In this document: positions 1-47,243 of the stretch, in pieces | Layout of the letters: each line of letters begins with the position of its first letter | How positions within the stretch are numbered: position 1 is the first letter of the stretch | Assembly: GCF_014203855.1 (NCBI RefSeq) | Contig: NZ_JACHJV010000001.1 | Span: 6,014,001-6,078,000 of the forward strand | DNA from: Kitasatospora kifunensis | GTDB taxonomy: Bacteria > Actinomycetota > Actinomycetes > Streptomycetales > Streptomycetaceae | Direction of reading: 5' to 3' | Length of the DNA: 64,000 bases | Made by a program: the position numbers and the translations under genes | Notes under the pieces: generated by a model | Told to the model about the DNA's origin: nothing | Databases searched by the model: none | What the model saw: the letters and a program-made list of their open reading frames with translations, nothing else

Positions 1-10654
<10,654 letters not shown>

Positions 10655-12019: not shown

Positions 12020-12032
12020 CGGACCCCCGTGC

Positions 12033-13256: not shown

Positions 13257-13267
13257 CACGTGGTCCT

Positions 13268-13495
13268 TCAACGAGGAGCCGTCGGTGGGTTAGGGGCGAG
13301 TTGCGCGGCGGCCTCGGCCAGTGTGGTGTCCAAGGTCATGCCGGTGGCGAGCGGCCCGGCCTCGTCCGCGAGCATGACCGCCAGCTCGGTCAGCGAGAGG
13401 GAGTCCATCGCCAGCTCGCGGAAGGTGGCCTGCGGGGATGCCTGTGAGGTGTCGATGCCGATCTCGAACAGCAGCTCAACGATCCTGTCGTACAA
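13268..13495 (-). CDS. Acyl carrier protein (DSLSL type), lipid module 1
   Basis: This 75-residue carrier protein has the attachment motif MDSLSLTEL, whose first serine should carry phosphopantetheine. The start is TTG, supported by GGAGAGACG eight bases upstream. It lies directly upstream of the ketosynthase (12-base gap), so it probably holds the chain during that condensation. Its DSLSL motif is the same as in the ACP at 36212 and unlike the SSLEEV motif of its other neighbour at 13530. This suggests that the two small carriers of this operon play different parts: one is loaded by the acyl-AMP ligase, the other serves the ketosynthase. Sequence beyond the motif is acidic and helical, as expected for an ACP. 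Confidence 0.88.
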   Translation of the reverse strand: MYDRIVELLFEIGIDTSQASPQATFRELAMDSLSLTELAVMLADEAGPLATGMTLDTTLAEAAAQLAPNPPTAPR

Positions 13496-13529
13496 GGCGT
13501 CTCTCCAGTTTCGTCGGGGTGGGTGTGGC

Positions 13530-13808
13530 TCAGCTGTGCGGCTCGTGCGCGGTCGGCAGGCCGGCGAGGTGGGCGGAGAGCGCCAGGATGGTGGGGTGGC
13601 GTCTCAGGTCCGTGATGGGAAGCGCCAGCCCGTACCGCGCCTCCAGGTCGGCCGTGATCGTCACCTCCTCCAAGGAGGAGACGCCGAGCGCGTCCAGCGG
13701 CACGGTCGGCTCGATCTCCTCGGCGGGGATCTCCAGCAGGGCGGCGAGGCGGCGGGTCAGCCAGTCGGCGACGTCCGAGGGGTCGGCGGGGTCGGCGGAT
13801 CGAGTCAC
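13530..13808 (-). CDS. Acyl carrier protein, probable partner of the acyl-AMP ligase
   Basis: This 92-residue carrier protein starts at a GTG that overlaps the stop codon of the acyl-AMP ligase (GTGA). The attachment motif is LGVSSLEEVTI, with the serine before Leu the likely modified residue. Translational coupling to the ligase makes it the natural acceptor of the activated acyl group. The first 18 residues are an acidic, Ala/Asp/Pro-rich lead-in. In lipopeptide loci a ligase plus free ACP hands the fatty acyl starter to the first condensation domain; the first NRPS module lies outside the window, so this cannot be checked here. Confidence 0.88.
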   Translation of the reverse strand: MTRSADPADPSDVADWLTRRLAALLEIPAEEIEPTVPLDALGVSSLEEVTITADLEARYGLALPITDLRRHPTILALSAHLAGLPTAHEPHS

Positions 13809-15610
13809 TGGGCTTCCCCGGTCTGTGTGGGCGCGGCGGTCTGCGTGGGCGCGGCCGAGCCGAGCCGGTCCGCGAGGTAGCGGTCGCGGCAGTCGCCGCG
13901 CCTGAGCTTGCCGCTGGTGGTACGCGGCAGGCTGCCGCGCCGGACCGCGAGGACGTCGTGGGGGCGAACGCCGTGGCGCTCGGCGACCGCGGCCAGGACA
14001 CGACGGCGCAGGTTGATCTCCTGGGCGCGGTGCGGGCCGGCGGCCAACTCCACCACCACGACCAGCCGGTCGCCCTCGCTGTCGGCGCCCTGCACGGCGA
14101 AGGCGGCCACCGTGCCCGCACCGGCTTCGGGGATCGCCCGGCAGACGGTGTCCTCGACATCGCCGGCCGCGTGGTTGGCACCGTTGACGATGATCACGTC
14201 CTTGAGCCGGCCGAGGACGAAGAGCTCGCCGTCGTGCAGGAACCCCAGGTCCCCGGTGCGAAGCCAGCCGCTCTGGCGGCCGTGCACGGTCTTCAGGGTG
14301 CGGTCGAACAGCTGGCCGGAGGGTGACGGCTGCCGCCAGTAGCCGGCCGCCACGTTGGGGCCGCGCACCCAGAGCTCGCCGACGAAGCCCGGTGCTTGCT
14401 CGACGCCGCTCTCGGGGTCCGCCACCCGCACGTCCTGCCCGACGGGTCGGCCGCAGCCCACCACCGTGCTCACCCGTGCCGCCGGCTCGCGGTCGGTCGC
14501 CAGGCGCACCCGCCCTGCGGCCAACGCGTCGGCGTCCAGGTCGAGTTCGCTCCACCGCCGCCCGACCCGGTTGCACGCCACCAGCACGGTGGCCTCGGCC
14601 AGACCGTAGCTGGGCTTGACCGCGTCGGGAGCCAGCCCGCAGGCGGCGAAGGCCTCGGTGAATCGGTGCAGCGTGCCGGTGCGCACCGGTTCGGCTCCGT
14701 TGGTCAGCACGCGGACGCTGCTGAGGTCCAGCCCCGAGCGGTCAGCGGCTGGGACCCGGCGGACGCACAGGTCGTAGGCGAAGTTCGGGGCGCCGCTGAA
14801 GTGCGTGCGGTGTGTGTCGAGCAACCGCAGCCAGCGCAGCGGCCGTTGGGCGAAGGCCAGGGGGGACATCAGGGCGAGGTGGGCACCCACGAGGATCGGT
14901 GCGAGCACCCCGATCGACAGGCCCATGTCGTGGAAGAGCGGCAGCCAGCTCGCGATGGGGGTACCGGAGGAGAGGCCGCAGCCGTCGGTGACCTGCCGGG
15001 TGCTGGCCACCAGGTTCCGGTGCGTGATGACGGCACCCCTGGGGTGGCCGGTGGAGCCGGAGGTGTACTGCAGATAGGCCGGCTCGGTGGGGGCGGACCG
15101 GTATCCCGAGCAGTCGGCGGCGAGGCGGGTGTCGGTCTCGTCGACCAGCCAGAGCGCAACCCGGCGATCGGTCAGTTCGCGGCAACTGCCGGCATTGCGA
15201 CCGTCGGTCAACAGGCAGACCGGGTCGGCGTCGGCCAGCACGGTCGCCAGCTGGCCGATGCGCCGGGAGTCCTCCGGCGGGAAGAGCGGCACCGCGATCA
15301 TCCCGGCGTACAGGCAGGCCAGGAACCCCAGGCCGTACTCCAGGCCTTGGGGGCAGAGCAGGGCAACGCGCGCGCCGCGTGGGAAGCGGGATTCGAGCGC
15401 GGCGGCGAGCGCCCGCGCGCGCTGGTCCACCTCGGCGAAGGTGAGCGTCTGCCAGGTACCGTCCGGATCGCGGCTGTAGTTCACGAAGCTGAGCGCCGAC
15501 CGGTCCGGGAACCGTGCCGCGTGGCCGGCCAGGACCGTCGGCAGCGGCGCCCACTCCCGGTCCGCGCGCGGCGGTGATGGGGCGAGGCCGCGAGCGGGCC
15601 GGTCGCGCAT
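13805..15610 (-). CDS. Fatty acyl-AMP ligase (FAAL-type adenylating enzyme)
   Basis: This 601-residue ANL-superfamily enzyme makes acyl-adenylates from free fatty acids and ATP and would pass the acyl group to an ACP. Visible motifs are the P-loop YTSGSTGHPRG, the FAAL-type core WLPLFHDMGL, YGLAEAT, TGDLGFL and the late GSLPRTTSGKLRR with the catalytic lysine. The arrangement and length fit FAALs rather than amino-acid adenylation domains. The ATG at 15610 is the first gene of the leftward operon and its stop overlaps the ACP start. The C-terminus has a short Thr/Gln/Pro repeat (AAPTQT twice). Together with the NRPS it points to a lipopeptide or other acylated peptide. An acyl-CoA ligase activity is possible but less likely. 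Confidence 0.9.
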   Translation of the reverse strand: MRDRPARGLAPSPPRADREWAPLPTVLAGHAARFPDRSALSFVNYSRDPDGTWQTLTFAEVDQRARALAAALESRFPRGARVALLCPQGLEYGLGFLACLYAGMIAVPLFPPEDSRRIGQLATVLADADPVCLLTDGRNAGSCRELTDRRVALWLVDETDTRLAADCSGYRSAPTEPAYLQYTSGSTGHPRGAVITHRNLVASTRQVTDGCGLSSGTPIASWLPLFHDMGLSIGVLAPILVGAHLALMSPLAFAQRPLRWLRLLDTHRTHFSGAPNFAYDLCVRRVPAADRSGLDLSSVRVLTNGAEPVRTGTLHRFTEAFAACGLAPDAVKPSYGLAEATVLVACNRVGRRWSELDLDADALAAGRVRLATDREPAARVSTVVGCGRPVGQDVRVADPESGVEQAPGFVGELWVRGPNVAAGYWRQPSPSGQLFDRTLKTVHGRQSGWLRTGDLGFLHDGELFVLGRLKDVIIVNGANHAAGDVEDTVCRAIPEAGAGTVAAFAVQGADSEGDRLVVVVELAAGPHRAQEINLRRRVLAAVAERHGVRPHDVLAVRRGSLPRTTSGKLRRGDCRDRYLADRLGSAAPTQTAAPTQTGEAQ

Positions 15611-28683: not shown

Positions 28684-29886
28684 TCACTCCGGTCGCAGGC
28701 TCAGGACGAGGTCGCGCGGCAGGCCGTGGGTGTCGTGGAGGTAGTGGAAGTCCTCCTCGCTCAACGGACCTTGGAACCGGCGGCGGGCCAGCACGTTCCG
28801 GCCGCGCTCCAGGAGTCGGCCGAATCCTCGCTCCTCGTCGAGCAGCACCCGGCGCACGACCTCCGGCTCCTCTTCCTGGCGGAAGCGGTCCAGGGTGTGC
28901 CGAACCAGCTCGTCCGGCAGGTCTCCCAGACCGCGCCACGGATCGTCGCGCCGCAGCACGGTGAGCACTCGCCGGATCAGCCGGCGCAGTACGTAGCCGC
29001 GGCCGGTGTTGCCCGGGCGCACTCCGTCGCCGATCACCACGACGGCCGAGCGGAGGTGGTCACAGACCAGCCGCAGCGAGGGCTCGTCCAGCTGCCACAG
29101 GGCCGGCACGAGAGTGCGCCAGGGGTCGAACACGTCGCACTCGAACACCGAGCGCCGGCCCTGCAGCAGCGAGGCCAGCCGCTCCAGGCCGAGCCCGGTG
29201 TCCACGTTGCGCTGCGGGAGCGGCACGAGTGAACCGTCGGCGAGCCGCAGATGGCGCATCATCACGTGGTTCCACACCTCGACCCAGCGGTCGTCACCCG
29301 TCGGCGTCGACTCCGGCGGGGTGTCGCCGGTCCACAGGAAGATCTCCGAGTCGGGGCCGCACGGACCGGTGGGCCCGTTGGACCACCAGTTGTCCTCGAC
29401 GGTGAGCTCCACCGGCACCCCGTGCGACTGCCACAGCTCCAGCGAGGCGGTGTCAGGACCGGTCCGGTCATCGCCGCCGAAGACCGTGGCATGGAGCAGA
29501 CCCGGATCGATGCCGAACCCCTCGGTCAGCAGCCCGTAACCCCAGTCGAGGCTGACGGGGCCCTCGTAGTCGCCGAGCGACCAGGTGCCGAGCATCTCGA
29601 AGACGGTCAGATGGGTGCGATCGCCGACCTCGTCGAGGTCCGTGGTGCGCAGGCAGCGCTGTACGTTGACCAACCGGTTGCCGAGGGGGTGTGGGCGTCC
29701 CTGGAGGTACGGGATGAGCGGGTGCATGCCCGAGGTGGTGAACAGCACCGGATCGCCGGGCGTCGGCAGCAGAGTCGAGCCGCTGATCCGGCGGTGGCCG
29801 CGCTCCTCGAAGTACTCGACGAACGTGCGGGCGATCTGATCGGTGGTCATGTCGGTGTTCACATCGGTGTTCACATCGGTGTTCAC
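28684..29886 (-). CDS. Alanyl-tRNA synthetase-like protein, catalytic part only
   Basis: 400 residues matching the N-terminal class II catalytic core of alanyl-tRNA synthetase: RTFVEYFEERGHR, LFTTSGMHPLIPYL, the motif 2 region RLVNVQRCLRTTDLDEVG, FFEMLG-like FEMLGTWSLGDY, GPCGPDSEIF, NVDTGLGLERL and motif 3 GNTGRGYVLRRLIRR. The editing, oligomerisation and C-Ala domains of the usual near-900-residue enzyme are absent and the stop looks natural. The GTG at 29886 is chosen for AAGGAG eight bases upstream; it is followed by tandem NTDV units, and an ATG at 29850 would skip them. Possible roles are a paralogue that activates alanine for something other than translation, or a resistance version. 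It lies downstream of the encapsulin/desulfurase pair but behind a terminator. Confidence 0.85.
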   Translation of the reverse strand: MNTDVNTDVNTDMTTDQIARTFVEYFEERGHRRISGSTLLPTPGDPVLFTTSGMHPLIPYLQGRPHPLGNRLVNVQRCLRTTDLDEVGDRTHLTVFEMLGTWSLGDYEGPVSLDWGYGLLTEGFGIDPGLLHATVFGGDDRTGPDTASLELWQSHGVPVELTVEDNWWSNGPTGPCGPDSEIFLWTGDTPPESTPTGDDRWVEVWNHVMMRHLRLADGSLVPLPQRNVDTGLGLERLASLLQGRRSVFECDVFDPWRTLVPALWQLDEPSLRLVCDHLRSAVVVIGDGVRPGNTGRGYVLRRLIRRVLTVLRRDDPWRGLGDLPDELVRHTLDRFRQEEEPEVVRRVLLDEERGFGRLLERGRNVLARRRFQGPLSEEDFHYLHDTHGLPRDLVLSLRPE

Positions 29887-34976: not shown

Positions 34977-36215
34977 TCAGGCGCTGCCCAGCACCAGGAC
35001 CGCGTTGTGGCCGCCGAAGCCGAAGGAGTTGCTGACGGCCAGCGGCACGGGAGTTTGCCGCACGGCGCCGTGCACGATGTCGATGTCGGCGGCATCGGCG
35101 TCGCCGGAGCGGAAGTTGGCGGTGGGCGGGATCACCCCCTGCGCGACCGACAGGGCGGTGAGGGCGGCTTCGACCGCTCCCGCGGCGCCCAGCATGTGAC
35201 CGGTCACGCCCTTGGTGGAGGTGACCGCGGGGCCCCGGCCGAAGACGCGGTCGATCACTCGGGCCTCGATGGCGTCGCCCTGGGGGGTGCTGGTCGCATG
35301 GGCGTTGATGAGTGCCACGTCCGAGGCATCGACTCCCGCGTCGTCGAGTGCCTGTCGCAGTGCGAGCTCGGCCCAGTGTCCAGCGGGGTCCGGCGAGGTG
35401 AGGTGATGGGCGTCCGAGGTCGCGCCGTAGCCCAACAGCCGCGCATAGGCGCGCCTGCCCCTCGCCTCGGCGTCCGCCGCGCGCTCCAGCACCAGCACGG
35501 CCGCGCCTTCGCCCAGCACGAAGCCGTCCCGCTGCGCGTCGAACGGCCGGGAGGCGGCAGCGGGGTCGCCGGTACGCCGCGAGAGCGCCTTGAGCCGGTC
35601 GAAGGCGGTGGATACCAGGGGAGTTACGGCGGCCTCGGTGCCGCCTGCCAGTACCACGTCGCACCGGCCGGCCCGGAGCAGGTCCAGGCCGTGGCCGAGC
35701 GCGGTGGTGCCCGCCGCGCAGGCGGTGGAGACGGTGAGCGAGGGGCCGTGCAGGCCGAGGTCCATGGCGACGGACCCGGCCGCGATGTTGCCGATGGCCT
35801 TGGGGACGGTCAGCGGGTTGACCGTGCGCGGCCCCCGCTCCCGTAGCCGCTGCCCCTGCTCCTCCCAGGTCGTCTGCCCGCCGACCGCCGTGCCGAGCAG
35901 CACGGCGGTCCTGGCCCGATCCCAGGAGCCTTCGGTCAGTGCCGCGTCGGCGACGGCCGCGCGGGCCGCGGCGACGGCGAACTGGGTGAAGGGATCCATC
36001 CGGCGGGCATCGCCGCCGAGCACCAGGTCCGGGTCGAACCCGGTCGCGGCGCAGCTGAAGTCGACACCCAGGTCAGCGAGTCGAGGATCGGTCGCGGCCG
36101 CGGAGCGCCCGGCGCAGATCGCCTTCCAGGCCGTCGCGGTATCGGCTCCGGCCGGTGTGACCAGGCCGATCCCGGTGATCACGACGTCGGAGCGGCGCAA
36201 GCTCTCTCCAGTCAT
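34977..36215 (-). CDS. Beta-ketoacyl-ACP synthase (FabF-like), lipid module 2
   Basis: 412-residue type II ketosynthase with a complete catalytic set: Cys166 in STACAAG, His306 in NAHATS and His340 in KGVTGHM. It is clearly a relative of the KS at 12033: both share the N-terminal GxGxxTPAG, the DFxC region and the GFGGHN close. The ATG overlaps the ACP stop (ATGA). The order of reading is KASIII, ACP, KS, so chain initiation, carriage and elongation stand together, but no malonyl transferase, ketoreductase or dehydratase is near. A StrR-like operator sits upstream of the first gene. Confidence 0.92.
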   Translation of the reverse strand: MTGESLRRSDVVITGIGLVTPAGADTATAWKAICAGRSAAATDPRLADLGVDFSCAATGFDPDLVLGGDARRMDPFTQFAVAAARAAVADAALTEGSWDRARTAVLLGTAVGGQTTWEEQGQRLRERGPRTVNPLTVPKAIGNIAAGSVAMDLGLHGPSLTVSTACAAGTTALGHGLDLLRAGRCDVVLAGGTEAAVTPLVSTAFDRLKALSRRTGDPAAASRPFDAQRDGFVLGEGAAVLVLERAADAEARGRRAYARLLGYGATSDAHHLTSPDPAGHWAELALRQALDDAGVDASDVALINAHATSTPQGDAIEARVIDRVFGRGPAVTSTKGVTGHMLGAAGAVEAALTALSVAQGVIPPTANFRSGDADAADIDIVHGAVRQTPVPLAVSNSFGFGGHNAVLVLGSA

Positions 36216-36448
36216 GCCGGGACGACCGCCCCTTGGGCCTCCAGCAGTTCGGCGATCTCGGCCACGGTGGTCGCGGCGGTCAGGTTCTCCTCGTCGACGG
36301 TGACGCCCAGATCGTCCTCCAACTGTGCGCCGAGCTCTGCCAACGACAACGAGTCGAGCTCCAGTTCCTCGAACGACATGGTGGGCTCGATGACTCCGTC
36401 GACGTTGTAGACGGAGCTGAGAATGGTGCGGAGGTAGTCGACGAACAT
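36212..36448 (-). CDS. Acyl carrier protein (DSLSL type), lipid module 2
   Basis: 78 residues, with the phosphopantetheine site in LELDSLSLAELGAQL. GGAAAGGAAAC stands before the ATG at 36448. It overlaps the KS gene and so is translationally coupled to it. Its motif matches that of the ACP at 13268, also coupled in position to a ketosynthase, which suggests that the two ACP-KS pairs arose from one another or have interchangeable partners. Confidence 0.9.
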   Translation of the reverse strand: MFVDYLRTILSSVYNVDGVIEPTMSFEELELDSLSLAELGAQLEDDLGVTVDEENLTAATTVAEIAELLEAQGAVVPA

Positions 36449-36497: not shown

Positions 36498-37526
36498 TCA
36501 GAACTCCGAACGAACGGCTTTCAGTTGCGGCCAGACGAGTGCGGCCGAACCCCAGCTCAGCCCACCGCCGAAAGCGGTGAGGACGGTGCGCGCACCGGGC
36601 TTGAGCTGATTCGTCGTCAGAGCGTCGGCCAGCGCCAGCGGAATGGAAGCGGCAGCCGTGTTGCCGACTCGGGCCAGCTCGCACACCGCGCTCTGCGGCG
36701 GCACGCCGAGTCGTTCGGCCACCGCCTCGATGATGCGGCTGTTCGCCTGGTGCGGCACCAGGGCGCCGATCGTCTCCGGGGCCCAGGCGCAGTCCTTCAT
36801 CACCCGTAGCGCCGAAGCGGTCATCCGCTCCACGGCCCGCAGGTACACCTTGCGGCCCGCCATGGTGAACCACCGCGGGCCTTCGGGCTGTTCACGCTCA
36901 CCGGGAACGTGGATGAGCCGATGGCCCGAGCCGTCGCTGCCGAGGTCGAAGGCGAGCAGCGCGCCCTGCTCCGCCGCCGTGCCGCGGCGCAGGACCACCG
37001 CTCCGGCACCGTCACCGAAGATCACGGCCGTGGACCGGTCCAGGGGGTCGACGATCCGCGAGTAGAGCTCGGCCGCGACGACCAGGACGCTGTCGACGAT
37101 GCCACTGGTGATCAGGCTCGCGGCCACCGTCGTGGCGTAGACGAAGCCGCTGCACACGGAGGAGATGTCGAACGCGGGGACCTGGCCCAGCCCGAGGCGC
37201 TCGGCGACCTCAGGGGCGGCGGCCGGACAGGGCCGGTCCGGTGTCGTGGTGGCCAGGACCAGGCCGCCGACCGTGTCGAGGCCCGCGGAACGCAGCGCGT
37301 TGGCGCCGGCCTCGCAGGCCAGGTCCCGCATGGACACCGAGGGGGCGGCCCGGCGCCGGGCGGCGATTCCGGTGCGAGTGCGGATCCACTCGTCATTGGT
37401 GTCCAACTGGGTCGGCAGCGAGGCGTTGTCGAACTCCGTGGTCGGCAGGCAGGTGCCGAGCCCGGCGAGCACCGCCGCCGGCTTCTCGTGACGTCCCCCA
37501 GGCGACGCTGTCTCTGCTGTGTGCAT
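36498..37526 (-). CDS. Beta-ketoacyl-ACP synthase III (FabH-like)
   Basis: 342 residues, counted from the ATG at 37526, which has AGGGGACC upstream; an ATG at 37544 would add six residues. The KASIII set is complete: Cys125 in SSVCSGFVYA, His259 in VPHQANSRI and Asn289 in RVGNTAAAS. These enzymes start a chain by joining an acyl-CoA to malonyl-ACP, or act as acyl transferases when extender binding is lost; the complete triad favours condensation. The short repeat AGAACTC occurs several times at 36478-36510 over the gene's 3' end. It leads the KASIII-ACP-KS operon and has a 29-bp operator-like site 241 bases upstream. Confidence 0.92.
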   Translation of the reverse strand: MHTAETASPGGRHEKPAAVLAGLGTCLPTTEFDNASLPTQLDTNDEWIRTRTGIAARRRAAPSVSMRDLACEAGANALRSAGLDTVGGLVLATTTPDRPCPAAAPEVAERLGLGQVPAFDISSVCSGFVYATTVAASLITSGIVDSVLVVAAELYSRIVDPLDRSTAVIFGDGAGAVVLRRGTAAEQGALLAFDLGSDGSGHRLIHVPGEREQPEGPRWFTMAGRKVYLRAVERMTASALRVMKDCAWAPETIGALVPHQANSRIIEAVAERLGVPPQSAVCELARVGNTAAASIPLALADALTTNQLKPGARTVLTAFGGGLSWGSAALVWPQLKAVRSEF

Positions 37527-37766
37527 CTGGCTGGTCCCCTGCATCCGGTCGAGCTTGAGTCCTGCCGGGCGGCCACCGTTCTGCGTGAACGCGCGACTGT
37601 GCGGCTGTGTGAATTGAGTTCCGGGTCAGCCGAGTTGACAATCGGTGGCGGCTGGAGCGGCTAATTGCGCATGCGAAGCCTCGCAGGATTCTCTGGGTGG
37701 CTTCACCGTGACATGGGGTTCACACAGCGTCAAGCAATGCCGGGCGAGCCTGCGGGCTGTTCAACT

Positions 37767-37795
37767 GTTCAACTGCCGCGCCGGCGCAGTTGAAC
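37767..37795. promoter_or_regulatory. StrR-type operator upstream of the KASIII operon
   Basis: GTTCAACTG, 11 bases, CAGTTGAAC: a perfect 9-bp inverted repeat with an 11-base spacer. This is the architecture of StrR-family operators, whose consensus I recall as GTTCGActG-N11-CagTCGAAc. An extra half-site GTTCAACTG overlaps it at 37759-37767. Two StrR-like regulators are coded at 41521 and 43679. The site is in the 405-base gap between the KASIII start and the hydrolase stop, and no gene is seen in that gap. It could also fold as a hairpin and end hydrolase transcription. Confidence 0.75.
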
Positions 37796-37931: not shown

Positions 37932-38732
37932 TCAGTACTTGTCCAGGAACTCCGTGATGGCGGCATTGACCGCCTCGGGCCGCTCCAGGTGGCCGAGGTG
38001 GCCGGCGGCGGAGATCTCGACGAAGTCGCAACCGGGGATGGCGTCGGCGACCTCCGAGACGAGGTGCGGCGGGCAGATCAGGTCGTCGGAGAAGGCGATC
38101 GCCCGGCAGGGCACGGTGATCGCGCGCAGCGCCTCGCGCCGGTCGCCGCCGTGCGAGACCCAGGCCTGGCCGTCGGCGCTGTTGCCGTTGCCGGTCAGTT
38201 CGAGAATCTCCAGCCAGGAGTCGACCGTGCTGTCGTTGTTCAGGCTGGCCGGCGAGAGCATCTCCAGCACCGTGCGGACGGCCTCGTACTTGGGTGGCAG
38301 CCGGATCCCGCTCTCCCGCATCAACTGCTCGGACTCCTGCATCGCCCGGCGCATCCTGTCGGTGCGGCCCCGGGTTGCCATCAGGACCACGGAGCGGACC
38401 AAGTGCGGTGCGACAAGGGCCAGTTCCTGGGCGATCATGGCACCCATGGAGTAGCCGACGATCCGGCAGGGCCCGAGGTCCAGCGCCTCGATCAGCCCCT
38501 TGGTGTCGGCTACCATGTCGGCCAGCGAGTACTTGCCGTCCGGCGCGTCCGAACCGCCGATGCCCCGGTTGTCGAAGATGATCGACTCGTACCCGGCCCG
38601 ATTGACGGCCGGCGTCTGATGCATCGTCCAGACGTGGCCCGCGGCCCCGGAACCCATGATGAACAGGACGGGTTCACCCCGGCCCGCGCGCTGGTAGGAG
38701 AGTCGGATTCCGTTGGTGCTCACGAAGGGCAT
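37932..38732 (-). CDS. Alpha/beta hydrolase
   Basis: 266 residues with the alpha/beta-hydrolase fold: nucleophile Ser95 in GYSMG, an oxyanion region IMGSGAAG, the acid Asp in FSDDLICPP (216/217) and His245 in AAGHLGH. FDNRGIGGSD is the usual strand 4 motif. It could be a type II thioesterase-like editing enzyme, an esterase or a C-C hydrolase; GYSMG is met in all of these. It reads in the same direction as KASIII, ACP and KS and lies upstream of them, but behind the operator region, so it may be transcribed separately. It is divergent from mbtH. Confidence 0.88.
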   Translation of the reverse strand: MPFVSTNGIRLSYQRAGRGEPVLFIMGSGAAGHVWTMHQTPAVNRAGYESIIFDNRGIGGSDAPDGKYSLADMVADTKGLIEALDLGPCRIVGYSMGAMIAQELALVAPHLVRSVVLMATRGRTDRMRRAMQESEQLMRESGIRLPPKYEAVRTVLEMLSPASLNNDSTVDSWLEILELTGNGNSADGQAWVSHGGDRREALRAITVPCRAIAFSDDLICPPHLVSEVADAIPGCDFVEISAAGHLGHLERPEAVNAAITEFLDKY

Positions 38733-38956
38733 GGCGCACCCCCGCTGGCGGTCGTCGTCTGCAAGAGGGGTCTCCAGGTCGTGATGGGGGAGACGGCCTG
38801 CGGCGCGGCTCCACTTCACTCCCACCATGGCATCGCGTCATACCGCTGATCAATGGCGATCGATGCCGGGCGATACGGGCTGACGGCCGGGGGCGGCTGG
38901 GAGCCGTTGACCCTGAACCGGGCCATGGTGAATCCTCAGGAGGCCGTCACGTTGAC

Positions 38957-39010
38957 AAGCGCAGGCAAGCGCAGGCAAGCGCAGGCAAGCGCAGGCAAGC
39001 GCAGGCAAGC
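38957..39010. repeat. 10-bp tandem repeat in the mbtH leader
   Basis: Five copies of AAGCGCAGGC plus a partial one, followed by two copies of GCCGACAAGA up to 39030. They end 13 bases before the GTG of the MbtH gene, just ahead of its ribosome binding site GAGAGGAG. The gap 38733-39042 has no gene; it should hold the promoters of the divergent hydrolase and mbtH. Confidence 0.85.
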
Positions 39011-39042
39011 GCCGACAAGAGCCGACAAGAGAGGAGCACGCG

Positions 39043-39255
39043 GTGACCAACCCGTTCGAGGATCCCGATGCCGAATACCTGGTCCTGGTCAACGAGGAGA
39101 ACCAGCACTCGCTGTGGCCGGTCTTCATCGACGTGCCCGAGGGCTGGACGTCGGTGTTCGGCAAGGCCGCGCGACAGGACTGCCTCGACTACATCGAGGC
39201 GAACTGGACCGACATGCGGCCCAAGAGCCTGATCGAGGCCATGGCGAAGAACTAG
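39043..39255 (+). CDS. MbtH-like protein
   Basis: 70 residues with the full MbtH signature: [29 protein letters not shown] and the C-terminal WTDMRPKSL. MbtH proteins bind NRPS adenylation domains and help their folding and activity. The GTG start has GAGGAG nine bases upstream. Its place 28 kb from the NRPS end suggests that both ends belong to one locus, or that it serves another synthetase. It is one gene between the divergent hydrolase and a strong terminator. Confidence 0.97.
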
Positions 39256-39309: not shown

Positions 39310-39588
39310 TTTCGGGGTCCGGCGGAGTCATCCGGGGGGCCGCGTACATCTGGGGCATGACTGCCGCGCAGAGCTACATCTCCAGCCTGACGACCAGGCA
39401 GCCGCGCTGCTTCTAGCGTGAAGCCATGACGCTTGAGCGGGCGGGCACGAGCGCGCCACGGCTCCTACGGCTCCCCGCGACTCCCCACAGTGCCCTCGCC
39501 GGCGAACAGCCTCCAGACCATCCTTCCCAGGAGGCCGGCCGGTGGCCCCCGACGCCACCCCTGACCGTCGGTGCCACCGGTCGGCCCC

Positions 39589-40016
39589 ACCTCGCACGAG
39601 CCAGGTGACCTCGCCTATGATGCCGCCCTGCCGTTCCCGGTGGTGCGCGACTCCAGCCGGGTGCTGCTGTCCACGGCCAGGGTCGCCCGACGGGCCCTTC
39701 AGATCGCCGCGACCCACGGCTGCGACCGGGTCTGGTTCGGTGCGGCGGCGCCGCTGGCCCTGATGGCGCCGATGCTGCGCCGGATCGGCGGCAGCGTCAC
39801 GGTGCTGGACGGGCGGACCGGTCAGGTCGTGGACGGCGCCGACCCGGCTTCGACAGCCGCGGCACTGACCCGGATCCTGCTCGACCCGCAGTGCGCGGCG
39901 ATGGGTGCGGCGGGACGGCGGTGGGTGGAGGAGTCCTGGTCCTGGGAGGCCTCGGCGCGTCACCTCATCGACTTGCTGGCCCCTCGTCCTAAGCGTATTG
40001 GCCCGCAGGGTTGTTG
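39589..40016 (+). pseudogene. Deleted copy of the GT4 glycosyltransferase gene
   Basis: The frame reads SHEPGDLAYDAALPFPVVRD through CDRVWFGAAAPLALMAP, matching the glycosyltransferase at 46080 from its residue 39 on. After LRRIGGSVTV it jumps to DGRTGQVVDG and runs on to MGAAGRRWVEESWSWE. Relative to the intact gene the 5' end is missing, a small piece around residues 100-138 and most of the middle (about 200 residues, including the donor-binding core) are gone. The 3' end stays in frame to a stop. It cannot be an active enzyme. The 280 bases before it (39310-39588) show no gene. Confidence 0.87.
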
Positions 40017-40042
40017 ACCTGTCCGCTGCGCGTCGGGCACGT

Positions 40043-40081: not shown

Positions 40082-40523
40082 GCATCCACCCCGCCGTTCG
40101 GTGAAACCCGGGTACATCTCTGGGATGACACGGCGGCGAGCATCAGCCTGGGGGTTGATGCGCACGTACTGAATGCCCCGTAGCGTTGGTTGTGGCACTC
40201 CCCGACACACCACCGGTGGAAGTGCCGATCCCCCCGTTGTTTCCTGTGTGATTCCCGGGCCGAGCACCTGTCAGGTCTTCTCAAACGTGACGGAGTGCCA
40301 TCGCTATGACGTCCCGACAATTCTTCGGCGAACCCTCCCGATAGGGGGCGGCTGCTTCGTTCGAGCGGTCGGGGCGAGGGGCCCGGCGCGCTCTGCCCCG
40401 CTCCGGGGCCGACCGCCGAGCTGCGGTCGAACGCCTCCTCAGCTCGCCTCCCGCCCGGGGCGACCGGGTGATTGCCAAGGTGGCGGGGGTGGGGGCGAAG
40501 GGCCGTGGCGGTGATCCGGCGGC

Positions 40524-40552
40524 GTTCAACTGCGTCCTCGGAGCAGTTGAAC
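40524..40552. promoter_or_regulatory. Second StrR-type operator
   Basis: GTTCAACTG, 11 bases, CAGTTGAAC: the same half-sites and spacer length as the site at 37767, but with a different spacer. Here the repeat extends to 13 bp on each side (GGCGTTCAACTGC). It lies 218 bases before an IS630 fragment and about 970 bases before the first StrR-like regulator gene. If the IS fragment is a later insertion, the site may once have been close to that gene's promoter. Confidence 0.75.
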
Positions 40553-40769
40553 GCCCGGCGGGCGGCCACGGGCAACCGCGCCGACTCCCCGGAAGTCGAC
40601 TCCCCGGAAGTCGGGTTCCTTGCCCGAAAGCCTGTCGCGAAGCCTGTCCCGACCCGGGTCGAGGAATGCCGGAGAGCTGCTTGAGGAGGTCACCGGGTGA
40701 GGCAAATTTGAAGACTCGATGTCGTATGTGATCTGACAGGGTGGGGCTCGCGCCGCTATATCTCTCTCC

Positions 40770-41225: not shown

Positions 41226-41520
41226 GAGATCGTCAGGATCGGCCCTCATGGGCTCGCGACTTCGGCACTGGAAAAATTTTTGCTCGTAGCCGATCTGATG
41301 GCTCGACAGCTGCTGTTGCAGGAGTGACGATTGGCATCAGAGAAGACCTGGCTGAGGGCGTGATCGTGGGGGTGGCTCCTGGACCCGGGGTGGTGATCCG
41401 GGACGTCAGGGTGCCCCGATAACCGATGCCGTGGCATTGCCACGCATCGGTGCCTCTGCGTGCGCGGAGGCAAGCGCGCTCGTGCTCAGCTCGGAGCCGC
41501 ACTACAACGGGGTGAGTTCT

Positions 41521-42546
41521 TTGAGCCAAACAGTGGCTGCACCACGCGAGTCCACAACCGTGGAGATACGCTCCCTGCTTCCCGGGGAGTCGCCGCGAAG
41601 CGAGGGCAGGGACCAGGAGCACATCGCCCGACTTGCGGAACTGGAAGGTCCGCTTCCGCCGATCCTGGTCGACCGCCGCAGCATGCGGGTGATCGACGGC
41701 ATGCACCGCCTGCTCGCCGCAGTCACCAAGGGCCAGCAGACCATCGAGGTCGAGTTCTTCGAGGGCAGCAGCGAGGACGCCTTCCTGACGGCGGTCGAGG
41801 CCAACGTCCGGCACGGCCTGCCGCTGTCGCACGCCGACCGGCGGGCCGCGGCCGAGCGGATCGTGACCTCGCACCCGCACCTGTCGGACCGGGCGATCGC
41901 GCGGACCGCCGGGCTGGGCGCCAAGGCGGTGGCGGCGATCCGGCGCCGGGTGACCGAGGACGGGGCGCAGTTGCAGGCCCGGGTCGGCCGGGACGGCAAG
42001 GTCCGCCCGCTGAACAGTGTGGAGGGGCGGCTGCGGGCTGCCGAGCTGATCGCCGAGCGCCCGGACGCCTCGCTGCGGGAGGTGGCGCGACTGGCCGGGA
42101 TCTCCCCGGCGACCGTCAGCGACGTCCGTCGCCGGCTGGAGTCGGGCGAGCTGCCGACGGCGGCGCAGCAGGCCGAGCAGCAGGCTGAACAGCAGATCGA
42201 GCGCCAGGTCGACGGGCAGGTGGACCGGGAGGTCGTCGTGCCGGTCCACCGCGGCGGCCGGCGTTCGGCGCGCCGGATGCGACTGGTGCCCTCCGACCCC
42301 ACTGTCGTACTGGAGAAGCTGGTGCGCGACCCCTCGCTGCGGCACAAGGAAGAGGGGCGGCAGCTGCTGCGCCTGCTGCAGCAGAACGCGATCAGGACCA
42401 GGGAGTGGTCCGAGCTGACCGCCGCGGTGCCCGCGCACTGCGGGGCACTGGTGGTCGACCTGGCCCGGCAGTGCGCGGAGACCTGGATGGAGTTCGCGCA
42501 GGAGCTGGACGAGCGGGTGCGGACCGCCGACCGCGCGGTCGGCTGA
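41521..42546 (+). CDS. StrR-type pathway regulator with ParB-like domain (copy 1)
   Basis: 341 residues from a TTG; the paralogue at 43679 also starts TTG-AGY-CAR, which supports this choice. A ParB/sulfiredoxin-like domain opens the protein (LLPGESPRS, LPPILVDRRSMRVIDGMHRLLAA, VEFFEGSSEDAFL, VEANVRHGLPLSHADRRAAAERI). Two helix-turn-helix-like parts follow (LSDRAIARTAGLGAKAVAAIRRR and ASLREVARLAGISPATVSDVRRR). This is the layout of StrR, NovG and Tei15*-type activators of antibiotic clusters. A Gln/Glu linker (AEQQ repeats) separates a C-terminal part with the DPSLRHKEEGRQLLRLL region. Operator-like sites at 37767 and 40524 fit the family. A terminator follows at 42560. Confidence 0.9.
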   Translation: MSQTVAAPRESTTVEIRSLLPGESPRSEGRDQEHIARLAELEGPLPPILVDRRSMRVIDGMHRLLAAVTKGQQTIEVEFFEGSSEDAFLTAVEANVRHGLPLSHADRRAAAERIVTSHPHLSDRAIARTAGLGAKAVAAIRRRVTEDGAQLQARVGRDGKVRPLNSVEGRLRAAELIAERPDASLREVARLAGISPATVSDVRRRLESGELPTAAQQAEQQAEQQIERQVDGQVDREVVVPVHRGGRRSARRMRLVPSDPTVVLEKLVRDPSLRHKEEGRQLLRLLQQNAIRTREWSELTAAVPAHCGALVVDLARQCAETWMEFAQELDERVRTADRAVG

Positions 42547-42629: not shown

Positions 42630-43340
42630 ATGAGCGAACGAGTCATCGCAGCGTGTGACGGAGCGGCCAAGGGCAACCCGGGTCCGGCGGCCTGGGCCTA
42701 CGTGGTCGCGGACAGCGCCGGGGTTCCGCAGCGCTGGCAGGCCGGTCCGCTGGGGCACAGCACCAACAACGTCGGCGAACTGACGGCGTTGGAGCAGCTG
42801 TTGACCGCGACGGACCCCGCCGTACCGCTGGAGGTTCGCCTCGACAGCACCTACACGCGCGACGCGGCGACCAAGTGGCTCGTGGCGTGGAAGCGCAACG
42901 GTTGGAAGACCGCGGCCGGCAAGCCGGTGGCCAACCGCGAGCTGATCCAGCGCATCGACGCGCTCCTGGAGGGGCGGGACGTCACCTTCGTGTACGTTCC
43001 GGCTCACCAGGTGAACGGCGATCCGCTGAACGCGATCGCCGACAAGGCCGCCAGCGACGCTGCCCGGCTCCAGGAGGCCGCCGGCGGGACTGCCGCCGAC
43101 CTCCCGGTGGCGGACCCGGCTCCGAGCTCTTCGCCTCGCGGCGCGCGTCCCGCCGCCTCCTCCACCTCTACCTCCGCCTCCGCGCCGAAGGCGAAGCGGA
43201 GCTCCTCGGGCGGTTCGCGGACGCTGGCCGCGCGTTACGCCGGGACGTGCCCGTGCACCCGCCCGTACGCCAAGGGCGACACGATCACCAAGGTGGGCAA
43301 CAGCTGGGGGCACCCGCAGTGCGCGGTCGCGCAGGCGTGA
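42630..43340 (+). CDS. Ribonuclease HI with C-terminal Cys/His extension
   Basis: 236 residues. Residues 1-140 are RNase HI, which cuts RNA in RNA-DNA hybrids. The acidic set is present: Asp10 in ACDGAAKGNPGP, Glu50 in NVGELTAL, Asp72 in RLDSTY and a late Asp in NAIADKAA. A 45-residue Ser/Ala/Pro-rich linker leads to a C-terminal piece of about 35 residues with TCPCTRPYAKGD and GHPQC. The C-x-C and H-x-x-C pairs could bind zinc, and the piece might bind nucleic acid. This tail is not part of E. coli RNase HI. The gene is between the two StrR-like regulators, with GGAGA before the ATG. Confidence 0.92.
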   Translation: MSERVIAACDGAAKGNPGPAAWAYVVADSAGVPQRWQAGPLGHSTNNVGELTALEQLLTATDPAVPLEVRLDSTYTRDAATKWLVAWKRNGWKTAAGKPVANRELIQRIDALLEGRDVTFVYVPAHQVNGDPLNAIADKAASDAARLQEAAGGTAADLPVADPAPSSSPRGARPAASSTSTSASAPKAKRSSSGGSRTLAARYAGTCPCTRPYAKGDTITKVGNSWGHPQCAVAQA

Positions 43341-43678: not shown

Positions 43679-44815
43679 TTGAGTCAGTCAGTTGTGCTTC
43701 CAGTTGGATGTGCACAGCGCGGTACCGATGCGGAAGCGGTCACGGTTGTCAGGGCCGCTGACGTTCCGCCGGGGAACATCGTCACCGTTGCGATCTCCGC
43801 GCTCCTGCCGGGGGAGTCGCCGCGCTCGGACGGCAGGGACGAGGAGCACATCGCCCGGCTGGCGGAGCTTGAGGCTCCGCTTCCGCCGATCCTGGTCGAC
43901 CGGCGCAGCATGCGGGTGATCGACGGCATGCACCGCGTGCTGGCCGCCGTCTCCAAGGGGCAGCAGACCATCCGGGTCGAGTTCTTCGAGGGCAGTAGCG
44001 AGGACGCTTTCCTTCGAGCGGTCGAGGCCAACGTCTCGCACGGCCTGCCGCTGTCGCACGCGGATCGGCGGGTCGCGGCCGAGCGGATCGTGGCGTCCCA
44101 TCCGCATCTGTCGGACCGGGCGATCGCGCGCTCGGCCGGGTTGGGAGCCAAAGCCGTCGCGGCGATTCGGCGGAGCTCGACCGAAGTGGCGGGGCGGTTG
44201 AACGCCCGGGTCGGCCGGGACGGCAAAGTCCGCCCGCTGAACAGCCTGGAGGGTCGGCAGAAGGCTGCGGAGCTGCTCACCGAGCACCCGCAGGCTTCGC
44301 TGCGCGAGGTCGCGAGACTGGCCGGGATCTCGCCGGCGACGGTGAGCGACGTGCGCCGCCGACTGGCCTGCGGCGAACCGCCGGCGCCGGCGCAGCCGGA
44401 ACCGGCCGTAGCCTGCGAAGCCACCGTGGCTTCCGAACCGGCCGTGGCCTGCGAACCGGTTGTGGATCCTGGCCCGCTGAAGGGCGCCGACGACTGCGCG
44501 GCGCCGACCCGATCCGCCAGGCAGCGCGCCGTGCGACGGATGCGGCTGGTCCGGTCGGACCCGGCCGCGGTGCTGGAGAAGCTGGTGCGCGACCCTTCGC
44601 TGCGCCACAAGGAGGAGGGGCGGCAACTGCTGCGCCTGCTCCAGCAGAACGCCAGGGACAACCGGGAGTGGTCCGAGCTGACCGCCGTCGTGCCCGCGCA
44701 CTGCGGGGCCTTGGTGGTCGACCTCGCGCGCAAGTGCGCCGAGACCTGGCTGGAGTTCGCGCAGGAGCTGGACGAGCGCATGCGCTCGACCGGAGAGCTG
44801 GCCGTCGCCGAGTGA
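43679..44815 (+). CDS. StrR-type pathway regulator with ParB-like domain (copy 2)
   Basis: 378 residues from a TTG. It is a close paralogue of the protein at 41521: the ParB-like domain and both helix-turn-helix regions match almost residue for residue (LPPILVDRRSMRVIDGMHRVLAA, SPATVSDVRRRL), and so does the C-terminal DPSLRHKEEGRQLLRLLQQNA. The differences are an N-terminal extension of about 15 residues and a linker rebuilt from ACEP/ASEP-type repeats. The second recognition region keeps REVARLAGIS, so both copies probably read the same operators. A duplication with RNase HI caught between is the simplest history. Between 44816 and 45254 there is no gene, only the repeat at 44914 and the inverted repeat at 45144. 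Confidence 0.9.
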   Translation: MSQSVVLPVGCAQRGTDAEAVTVVRAADVPPGNIVTVAISALLPGESPRSDGRDEEHIARLAELEAPLPPILVDRRSMRVIDGMHRVLAAVSKGQQTIRVEFFEGSSEDAFLRAVEANVSHGLPLSHADRRVAAERIVASHPHLSDRAIARSAGLGAKAVAAIRRSSTEVAGRLNARVGRDGKVRPLNSLEGRQKAAELLTEHPQASLREVARLAGISPATVSDVRRRLACGEPPAPAQPEPAVACEATVASEPAVACEPVVDPGPLKGADDCAAPTRSARQRAVRRMRLVRSDPAAVLEKLVRDPSLRHKEEGRQLLRLLQQNARDNREWSELTAVVPAHCGALVVDLARKCAETWLEFAQELDERMRSTGELAVAE

Positions 44816-45254: not shown

Positions 45255-46064
45255 ATGAACGACACGTCGGCACGCCCGATGGGGCCCACCGGCCCGCGAG
45301 AGGGCCACCGCCGCTACCCGGGTGCGCGGGTGACCTCGGTGGCGCGCGGCCTGCGTTGGGCCTCGCGGCGATGGTCCTTCGTGGAGCCGGAAGTGGCCGG
45401 CCTGCGGCCGCTGGTGCGCCCCGGCGCGGTCTGCCTCGACATCGGTGCCGAGTACGGTCTCTACACCTGGAGCCTGTCCGCGCTGGCCGGCCCCGCGGGT
45501 GCGGTGCACTGTGTCGAGCCGCTGCCGGGCCCGGCGCGGTGGCTGCGCACCGCGGCCGCCACGCTCGGCTGTGACAACGTCACCGTGCACCGGACGGCTC
45601 TTGCCGAGCGGGCGCACCAGGGCACGATGAGCCTGCCGCGCCGCCGGCTGCTGCCCGTGCACGGACGCGCCTACCTCACCGACGGCGCCTCGGGCCCCGG
45701 TCCCAACGTCGAGTTCGCCAGCTCCACCATGGTTCTCACCCCGGTGCGGACGGTGGACGGTCTCTGTCGACACGCGGGGCTGGACCGGGTCGACTTCATC
45801 AAGGCCGACGTGGAGGGGGCGGAACTGGCTGTGCTGGAGGGGGCACAGCAGACTCTGCTGGACCACCGCCCGGCCCTGCTGTTGGAGATCGAGGAGCGCC
45901 ACCTCGCCAAGTACGACATGCGGGCGACTGACCTGGTCCGCCGACTAAGCGGCCTCGACTACCGCATGTACCGCTGGAACAAAGGAAGTTGGGAGAGCGT
46001 GGCGGAGGTCACGGACGACTGCCGCAACTACCTCTTCACGGCTCGAACGATTCCCTTGATCTGA
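45255..46064 (+). CDS. FkbM-family methyltransferase
   Basis: 269 residues from the ATG at 45255, which has a GGGGGGACAGGG purine run before it. The SAM-binding loop is CLDIGAEYGLYTW, the acidic residue closing strand 2 is in VHCVEPLPG, and the FkbM signature VDFIKADVEGAELAVLEGA is clear. Such enzymes O-methylate sugars or other hydroxyls. The glycosyltransferase gene begins 15 bases after its stop, so a joint role in making or decorating a glycan or glycolipid is likely. Confidence 0.9.
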   Translation: MNDTSARPMGPTGPREGHRRYPGARVTSVARGLRWASRRWSFVEPEVAGLRPLVRPGAVCLDIGAEYGLYTWSLSALAGPAGAVHCVEPLPGPARWLRTAAATLGCDNVTVHRTALAERAHQGTMSLPRRRLLPVHGRAYLTDGASGPGPNVEFASSTMVLTPVRTVDGLCRHAGLDRVDFIKADVEGAELAVLEGAQQTLLDHRPALLLEIEERHLAKYDMRATDLVRRLSGLDYRMYRWNKGSWESVAEVTDDCRNYLFTARTIPLI

Positions 46065-46079
46065 AGGAACCACCCCTCC

Positions 46080-47243
46080 ATGGCATCCACCCTTGTCATC
46101 ACCAACGACTTCCCGCCTCGCCAGGGCGGCATCGAGACCTTCGTGCACGCCCTGGTCACGCGGATGCCCGCGGACGATGTCGTGGTCTATGCCTCACACG
46201 AGCCCGGCGACACCGCCTACGACGCGACGCTGCCCTTCCCGGTGATCCGGGATACCACCCGGATGCTGCTGCCGACCCGCCGGGTCACCGCGCGAGCCGT
46301 CGAGATAGCGCGGGAGCACGGTTGCGACCGGGTGTGGTTCGGGGCCGCCGCGCCGCTGGCGCTGATGGCGCCGACCCTGCGCCGGGCCGGCGTACGGCGG
46401 ATGGTGGCCACCACGCACGGCCACGAGATCTGGTGGGCCCGCAGCCCAGGCGCCCGCCAGCTCATGCGGCGGATCGGCGGCAACGTGGACGTCGTCACCT
46501 ACCTCGGTCAGTACACCCGGGCCCGGATCGAGCCCGCGCTCGGTCCTCGGGCCACGATGAGCCGCCTGGTGCCCGGCGTCGACGTGGAGGTGTTCCGGCC
46601 CGACGCCGCCGCCCGCGCGAAGCTGCGCGCCGAACTCGGCCTGGAGGGCAAGAAGGTGATCCTCTGCGTGGCCCGGCTGGTGCCGCGCAAGGGCCAGGAC
46701 ATGCTGATCCGGGCGCTGCCGCTGCTGCGGCGCACCGTGCCCGACGCGGTCCTGCTGATCGTCGGCAAGGGTCCGCACGAGGCCCGGCTGCGCAAGCTGG
46801 CACAGCAGCAGGCCGACGGTGCGGTCCAGTTCGTCGGTGGCATCACGCACGCGGAGACCCCGCCGTACTACGCCGCGGCGGACGTCTTCGCCATGCCGTG
46901 CCGCACCCGCAAGGCCGGGCTGGAGGCCGAAGGTCTCGGGATCGTCTTCCTGGAGGCCGCGGCGAGCGAACTGCCGGTCATCGTCGGCAACTCCGGCGGC
47001 GCCCCCGACACCGTGCGCGACGGCCGCACCGGCCACGTCGTGGACGGCACCAGCCCCGAGGCGGTCGCCGCCGCGCTGGCCCGCACGCTGCTCGACGCCG
47101 ACAACGCCGACAACGCCGCGATGGGCGCGGCCGGCCGCGAGTGGGTGCGGGACTCCTGGTCCTGGGACGGCTCGGCGCAGCGCCTGATGCGACTGCTGAA
47201 CCCCGAACAGTCGCTGCCCGCCCTGCGGGAAGAGGAGGAGTAG
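46080..47243 (+). CDS. GT4-family glycosyltransferase (PimB-like)
   Basis: 387 residues. The N-terminal lobe has TNDFPPRQGGIETFVH, as in the mannosyltransferases PimB and PimC; the C-terminal lobe has LCVARLVPRKGQDMLI, a VGKGPHEARLRKL strand, and the donor-binding EAEGLGIVFLEAAASELPVI with the E-x7-E pattern. In actinobacteria this group often moves mannose to phosphatidylinositol lipids or acts on other polyprenol or lipid acceptors. It is probably co-transcribed with the FkbM gene. A deleted copy lies at 39589. Confidence 0.9.
   Translation: MASTLVITNDFPPRQGGIETFVHALVTRMPADDVVVYASHEPGDTAYDATLPFPVIRDTTRMLLPTRRVTARAVEIAREHGCDRVWFGAAAPLALMAPTLRRAGVRRMVATTHGHEIWWARSPGARQLMRRIGGNVDVVTYLGQYTRARIEPALGPRATMSRLVPGVDVEVFRPDAAARAKLRAELGLEGKKVILCVARLVPRKGQDMLIRALPLLRRTVPDAVLLIVGKGPHEARLRKLAQQQADGAVQFVGGITHAETPPYYAAADVFAMPCRTRKAGLEAEGLGIVFLEAAASELPVIVGNSGGAPDTVRDGRTGHVVDGTSPEAVAAALARTLLDADNADNAAMGAAGREWVRDSWSWDGSAQRLMRLLNPEQSLPALREEEE

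Follow-up and report, generated by a model that had tools for sequence, protein, structure and literature searches.

A predicted StrR-type operator before a lipid operon of Kitasatospora kifunensis, a probable split lipopeptide pathway and putative operators inside strR-family genes

Introduction

In the passages of the literature available to us, the StrR-family regulators StrR, Bbr, AoStrR1 and End22 are described as activators. For the streptomycin clusters of Streptomyces griseus and S. glaucescens, in which the operators of StrR lie upstream of biosynthetic operons, the accessible part of one source gives the consensus GTTCGActG(N)11CagTcGAAc (PMC8306873). The glycopeptide regulators Bbr, Dbv4, Tei15* and AoStrR1 have operators of the form GTCCAR-N17-TTGGAC, and Bbr and AoStrR1 also bind upstream of their own genes, as far as the available passages of two sources go (PMC6022936, PMC7852140). 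StrR-like regulators (Ramo5, Chers28, End22/End24) are likewise named for ramoplanin-like lipodepsipeptide clusters in the accessible text of a further source (PMC10886168).

Here we consider a predicted operator, S1, in a stretch of 64,000 nucleotides of Kitasatospora kifunensis DNA (the window), together with a large distant nonribosomal peptide synthetase (NRPS) cluster of the same genome. S1 resembles the streptomycin-cluster operators in consensus, in the activator family of its putative regulators and in its place upstream of a biosynthetic operon, and differs in having A at arm position 5, in a predicted regulon that extends over two distant loci and in its association with probable lipopeptide genes. 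With the glycopeptide systems, so far as these are covered by the passages at hand, it shares StrR-family regulators, a 29-base span and Dpg/Hpg pathways. The outer hexamers of S1 are GTTCAA/TTGAAC instead of GTCCAR/TTGGAC, however, which rules it out as an operator of the GTCCAR-N17-TTGGAC type. The NovG operator of the novobiocin cluster, whose consensus we take to be GTTCRACTG(N)11CRGTYGAAC, covers S1 fully through the R at position 5 and has the same spacing. NovG serves an aminocoumarin pathway, in contrast to the predicted lipopeptide genes at S1, and we know of no split cluster for it.

Ramoplanin and enduracidin each have 17 residues and 17 modules, whereas the distant cluster has 22 adenylation motifs. 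Ramoplanin-like clusters are similar to the system described here in their Hpg/Dpg and lipid tail genes and, for enduracidin, in having two StrR-like genes, according to the accessible passages (PMC10886168). There the regulators are cluster members, whereas here they map to a distant locus and none is present at C1:110-230 kb.

Results

S1 reads GTTCAACTG-CCGCGCCGGCG-CAGTTGAAC, and its palindrome extends to 10 bases per side. The earlier note, made from the letters of the window, had seen in it the 9-bp arms and 11-base spacer of a StrR operator, and both arms are indeed perfect. As the note had stated, the sole departure from the StrR consensus in the available part of PMC8306873 is A for G at arm position 5 (T for C opposite). 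More generally, the site has the inverted half-sites GTTCRACYG and the 11-base spacer of the StrR/NovG-type pattern. The further overlapping half-site that had been noticed before S1 could also be located (GTTCAACTG, with one base in common with the first arm); it is absent from the printed flanks of the KASIII operators of five relatives. S1 lies upstream of the KASIII-ACP-KS operon, as had been stated: all three genes are confirmed by Pfam and point leftward, with 223-295 bases between S1 and the possible KASIII start codons (37544, 37526 and 37472). The two StrR-like genes said to lie 4-6 kb away have starts ~3.6 and ~5.9 kb from S1. Coordinates are given in Table 1.

Table 1. Features of the window around S1, in window positions.
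Feature	Position	Strand	Remarks
Ketoacyl synthase (KS), lipid operon	34977..36215	-	Pfam ketoacyl-synt
Acyl carrier protein (ACP), lipid operon	36212..36448	-	Pfam PP-binding
KASIII (ketoacyl-ACP synthase III), leads lipid operon	36498..37544	-	Pfam ACP_syn_III, ACP_syn_III_C
Extra half-site	37759..37767	+	1 base in common with first S1 arm
S1, StrR-type operator (predicted)	37767..37795	.	perfect 9-base arms, 11-base spacer
Alpha/beta hydrolase or thioesterase-like gene	37932..38828	-	Pfam Abhydrolase; relatives also within Hpg/Dpg clusters
MbtH-like gene	39043..39255	+	Pfam MbtH; 85% identity to MbtH of distant cluster
Third strR, remnant	40378..40558	+	tblastn and blastn self-comparison
S2, perfect operator	40524..40552	.	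at the position where strR-family genes have an intragenic operator
strR1, StrR-family regulator	41431..42546	+	internal site lost (5 mismatches)
strR2, StrR-family regulator	43679..44815	+	carries internal operator
Operator inside strR2	44175..44203	.	1 mismatch to symmetric consensus; codons of SSTEVAGRLN
FkbM-type methyltransferase	45381..46064	+	66% identical copy in distant cluster
GT4-type glycosyltransferase	46080..47243	+	relatives elsewhere in same cluster type

Several other features of the window may be recorded. A decayed GT4 copy at 39571-40017 has residues 39-104 fused to 307-375 by an internal deletion, tandem repeats of ~10 bases occur at ~38970-39030 just 5' of the MbtH start, and a gene with an RNase H fold (42630-43340) separates strR1 from strR2. 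An open reading frame (ORF) of 400 amino acids at 28684-29886 has a start that by eye resembles alanyl-tRNA synthetase. Positions 10787-15610 and the DNA upstream belong to another NRPS, operator-free, which is accompanied by a KS, two ACPs and a FAAL-like gene of its own. Relatives have an operator between the hydrolase and MbtH genes; the best match there in the window has 6 mismatches.

The motif is far too rare to have arisen by chance, an origin that is ruled out by counts against controls in the window, the genome and 200 family genomes. With up to 3 mismatches to the pattern first proposed, the window holds three matches where 0.05 are expected, a number reached in 0 of 100 shuffles. 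Two of these, the perfect S2 (40524-40552) and the one-mismatch copy at 44175-44203, are additional to S1; the latter, inside strR2, has 3 mismatches to the first pattern and 1 to the symmetric consensus GTTCRACYG-N11-CRGTYGAAC that was used genome-wide, with the reversed pattern as control. Across the 9.57 Mb genome, eight places match this consensus with at most one mismatch, six perfectly and two with one mismatch, against base-composition expectations of 0.0013 and 0.072, and the reversed pattern gives no place at the same threshold. A genome scan had been proposed in the earlier note, for which copies spread at random would have spoken against the reading. The eight places fall without exception into two loci: the window has three of them (S1, S2 and the site inside strR2) and the distant NRPS cluster five, so no such scatter occurred. 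With up to 2 mismatches to the first pattern, one additional place lies outside both loci (C1:4821535). In the 200 family genomes the perfect motif is found at 69 places in 41 genomes, and the reversed control at one.

The five distant operators (C1:125175, 128731, 160353, 183519 and 216943) belong to a cluster at C1:125-217 kb. They adjoin an ABC transporter with a two-component system, an HPPD-type dioxygenase with another ABC transporter, two large NRPS units, and a CmlA-type hydroxylase unit running towards aminotransferase and dpg genes; the distances to the starts, as set by a simple gene caller, are 122-658 bases. The 22 adenylation motifs are distributed over four NRPS genes (7, 7, 3 and 5), and a terminal thioesterase-like motif is present. 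DpgA and DpgC score 640 and 739 bits against NCBIfam cut-offs of 425 and 530, and the CmlA-type hydroxylase, the HPPD-type dioxygenase (HmaS-like) and the aminotransferase are accompanied by a P450. The cluster thus combines Hpg and Dpg pathway genes with a large NRPS, as ramoplanin-like clusters do. No operator precedes MbtH and the first NRPS unit in the 110-230 kb scanned, and strR and KAS genes were not found in the cluster (the StrR search covered C1:110-230 kb). The genome has another Dpg/Hpg NRPS cluster, at C2:325-344 kb (DpgA, 661 bits), and a 40 kb scan there allowing up to 3 mismatches detected no site; the operators therefore mark one Dpg cluster and not Dpg genes in general.

As assembled, the window locus and the distant cluster are 5.8 Mb apart on the contig, or at least 1.8 Mb if the contig ends are joined. 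Their gene contents scarcely overlap. When the window genes of 34-49 kb were searched for in C1:110-230 kb, only MbtH and FkbM had matches, and a search with 15 distant-cluster genes in 124 kb around the window returned only MbtH, FkbM and common ABC-transporter and two-component types. In relatives the two sets lie together. KASIII is present in 6 of 31 StrR neighbourhoods (L022, L024, L142, L143, L144 and L155, the last from a genome of the same genus), and genes of the distant cluster type lie within 20 kb in all six; for L024 these are, over 20 kb, an ABC transporter, MbtH and an NRPS of the set, with no Dpg/Hpg genes. An operator with 0-1 mismatch precedes KASIII in five of the six loci, the sixth (L144) having none with up to 2 mismatches near KASIII. 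The claim that the lipid genes are tied to a pathway-specific regulator is borne out to this extent. Two genomes of the genus have 14 and 11 StrR matches, several of them in one stretch, although some of these are pieces of one gene.

Taken together, the shared operator, the complementary gene content and the contiguous layout in relatives indicate that S1 is most likely the operator of a StrR-type activator in a split pathway. We conclude that a single biosynthetic pathway, contiguous in relatives, would here be divided between two far-apart chromosomal loci, at least as the genome is assembled.

Two other accounts of the lipid operon have to be weighed. The window locus might be what is left of a second Hpg/Dpg lipopeptide cluster after loss of its NRPS, with the operator-bearing KAS operon no longer used. 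Decayed copies of strR and GT4 at 39.5-40.6 kb are what such a relic would contain, as are MbtH and FkbM genes doubled between the two loci. We nevertheless regard it as unlikely: KASIII, ACP, KS, strR1 and strR2 are all intact open frames, S1 is perfect, the two gene sets are largely complementary, and the genome yielded no further StrR gene for the five distant operators. The presence of an NRPS nearby and of the C2 Dpg cluster also means that the KAS operon could serve another product. In particular, the NRPS that extends from about -14160 to 10665 in window coordinates starts within ~50 kb and is probably a lipopeptide maker too, judging from its FAAL-like, ACP and KS genes; this KS and the KS of the operon are 51% identical, and the motif shared by the two loci would then reflect shared regulator ancestry only. 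This NRPS, however, has its own KS-ACP-ACP-FAAL set, the KAS operon of relatives sits with genes of the distant cluster type, and a search of 124 kb around it with up to 3 mismatches finds only S1, S2 and the site inside strR2. Service to this neighbour is thus quite unlikely, and a pathway split between the window and the 22-module cluster remains the reading we prefer.

The StrR-family genes of the genome are found in the window only (two genes and one fragment). StrR1 and StrR2 are nearly identical in their helix-turn-helix stretches, and StrR2 has 44.8% identity, over 96% of its length, to a 'streptomycin biosynthesis protein' of Streptomyces sp. NBC_00853. Pfam assigns helix-turn-helix families and no ParB family to the two proteins, and an NCBIfam search assigned no StrR family to either. 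In an AlphaFold model of StrR2 (mean pLDDT 82.6, pTM 0.60) the N-terminal part is ParB-like and there are two helix-turn-helix-like units; the top Foldseek matches of the model are ParB/Noc proteins, with E ~5e-6 but TM-scores of only 0.2-0.3 on the query. Residues 166-175, which the internal operator encodes, form in the model the end of a helix (157-168) and a loop before a strand (176-178). This loop is placed between the two helix-turn-helix-like units and has the lowest confidence within the folded core, a position that would fit a place tolerating a protein sequence imposed by the DNA.

Operators inside strR-family genes are not peculiar to this genome. We aligned 174 distinct StrR-like ORFs that had been gathered by protein similarity and not by motif, and scored the intragenic site by whichever of eleven registers about the aligned column matched best. 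A perfect site stands at one fixed codon position in 23 ORFs; 11 have one mismatch there, 15 two and 12 three, and 110 have at least 5. Three loci found by the motif also hold strR genes, two of them duplicates of similarity-found genes and the third with 10 mismatches at the place of the motif. In an earlier set of 148 ORFs the best match had up to 3 mismatches in 45, of which 44 were at that position and frame, and no match elsewhere within the same strR genes was better than 3 mismatches. Clustering at 70% protein identity sorts the 23 genes with a perfect site into 18 groups, and on a FastTree tree computed without the operator columns the site changes between presence and absence at least 17 times.

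It could be argued that these sites are no operators at all, being instead a by-product of protein conservation or a rare-codon pause. The sites do encode a recurring motif, [RSC]-S-T-x4-Q-[LS]-N; third-position GC is low there (0.69, versus 0.83 in the gene), and the 110 ORFs with at least 5 mismatches could be held against an operator. The codons tell otherwise. Among the 22 of 148 ORFs chosen by the amino acids of this motif alone, the first codon is xGT in every one, although the residue varies between R, S and C: Arg is CGT in 15/15 (6.6% elsewhere in these genes), Ser is AGT in 3/3 (4.7%) and Cys is TGT in 4/4 (18%). Ser-2 is TCA or TCG in 22/22 (39.6% elsewhere), Leu-9 is TTG in 15/15 (6.1%) and Ser-9 is TCG in 7/7 (35%). 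The variable residues are those that the free bases of the operator allow, with the Leu/Ser swap following its Y base, whereas neighbouring conserved Arg residues in operator-bearing genes use CGT in only 4/21 and 5/25. In a tree-corrected test, CGT was associated with an intact right half (median p 0.031, range 0.008-0.375); the corresponding association of TTG with an intact left half was not significant (median p 0.63). A mere by-product is accordingly very unlikely. That the palindrome functions as an RNA hairpin is hardly credible and was rejected: the arms are able to pair, but among 28 intragenic sites with 0-1 mismatch, 17 have a C-A mispair at position 8 and 4 have an A-C mispair at position 5, so that each half obeys the half-site code and pairing is not conserved.

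The arrangement of genes around the intragenic operators was also compared. Mutual exclusion of upstream and intragenic operators found no significant support in the 173 ORFs for which 900 or more upstream bases were at hand (Fisher p 0.47-1.0 at five of six cut-offs, 0.10 at the sixth). The sole gene with a perfect intragenic and a perfect upstream site (L026) has the latter inside a preceding strR gene. A co-directional next gene follows 27/31 operator-bearing and 76/101 operator-free ORFs, leaving out 8 ORFs of these two classes without a called next gene and 30 with 2-4 mismatches; the difference is not significant (p 0.22) and gives no support to the intragenic site as an operator of the next gene. 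Two examples resemble the streptomycin system. On a Streptomyces plasmid (L228), a 'streptomycin biosynthesis protein' gene adjoining an inosamine-phosphate amidinotransferase gene contains a perfect internal site; no other StrR-type site occurs in its 9 kb when up to 3 mismatches are allowed. A second strR with a perfect internal site (L231) has neighbours resembling strD, aphD and strB1, of which strB1 was named by tblastn (70%) and the other two by eye. The only strong operators at this locus (up to 3 mismatches, 20 kb) are an intergenic one and the one inside strR, at 2471-2499 and 9179-9207. In Nonomuraea gerenzanensis, by contrast, the intragenic site is lacking from a StrR-like gene that adjoins vanY and is probably dbv4, whose known operator is of the other, glycopeptide type.

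S2 corresponds to this intragenic position in a third strR that has decayed. Residues 125-166 match by tblastn at 40378-40503, and blastn aligns 40482-40558 with 44134-44209 of strR2. In the frame of the operator the flanks read by eye as VAVIRRR-STASSEQLN-AR; this frame is shifted relative to that of 40378-40503, the break falling after 40503 and ahead of the operator. A disrupted gene thus retains an undamaged operator. The remnant was placed by these searches together with by-eye codon reading, since a MAFFT alignment misplaced the operator. Judged by its sequence, S2 is an intragenic operator that has survived in a decayed strR copy. At least 879 bases separate it from the first possible start of strR1.

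Discussion

The locations of the sites, their rarity, their confinement to two loci, their conservation and the complementary gene content of these loci are computed observations. Regulator binding, activation, the role of the lipid genes and the product are read from them, and we consider the resulting account of operator, regulon and split pathway, taken as a whole, to be likely. StrR1, StrR2 or both, encoded in the window, would recognise the pair of 9-base half-sites in S1 and thereby activate the KASIII-ACP-KS operon, which begins ~220-300 bases further downstream; the operon would in turn provide the acyl chain of a lipopeptide or alter it. These regulators may also act in trans on the five operators of the 22-module Hpg/Dpg NRPS cluster. 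That they activate from S1 and from the distant operators is inferred from the family, in which StrR, Bbr, AoStrR1 and End22 have this role. S2 could serve auto-control of strR1, and the internal sites may feed back on the regulator gene in which they lie or influence the gene that follows.

A more inclusive reading joins widespread strR-internal operators, a switch left by a decayed gene and a split lipopeptide pathway, and we give this combination about an even chance of being correct. Under it, an operator lying between two helix-turn-helix units would shape the protein (R/S/C-S-T...Q-L/S-N) and would provide built-in auto-control of the regulator or putative control of the next gene; where one regulator gene decayed and its operator stayed perfect, the dead gene may have been kept as a switch. 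The passages of the literature available to us hold no mention of an operator inside strR. An earlier description is quite possible, given that the title of Retzlaff and Distler 1995 speaks of 'multiple recognition sites'.

If these interpretations hold, the lipid genes can be assigned to a cryptic 22-module Hpg/Dpg lipopeptide, for which cluster-finding based on proximity would miss both the regulators and the tail genes. From a rare 18-base signature alone, with no experiment, the regulon could be traced to one pair of regulators and eight sites at two loci in 9.6 Mb. This points to genes that could be expressed for waking the cryptic cluster. For the family as a whole, an intragenic operator would make StrR-type auto-control testable by recoding a few codons with the protein unchanged, and strR genes cloned on plasmids would carry along an extra operator.
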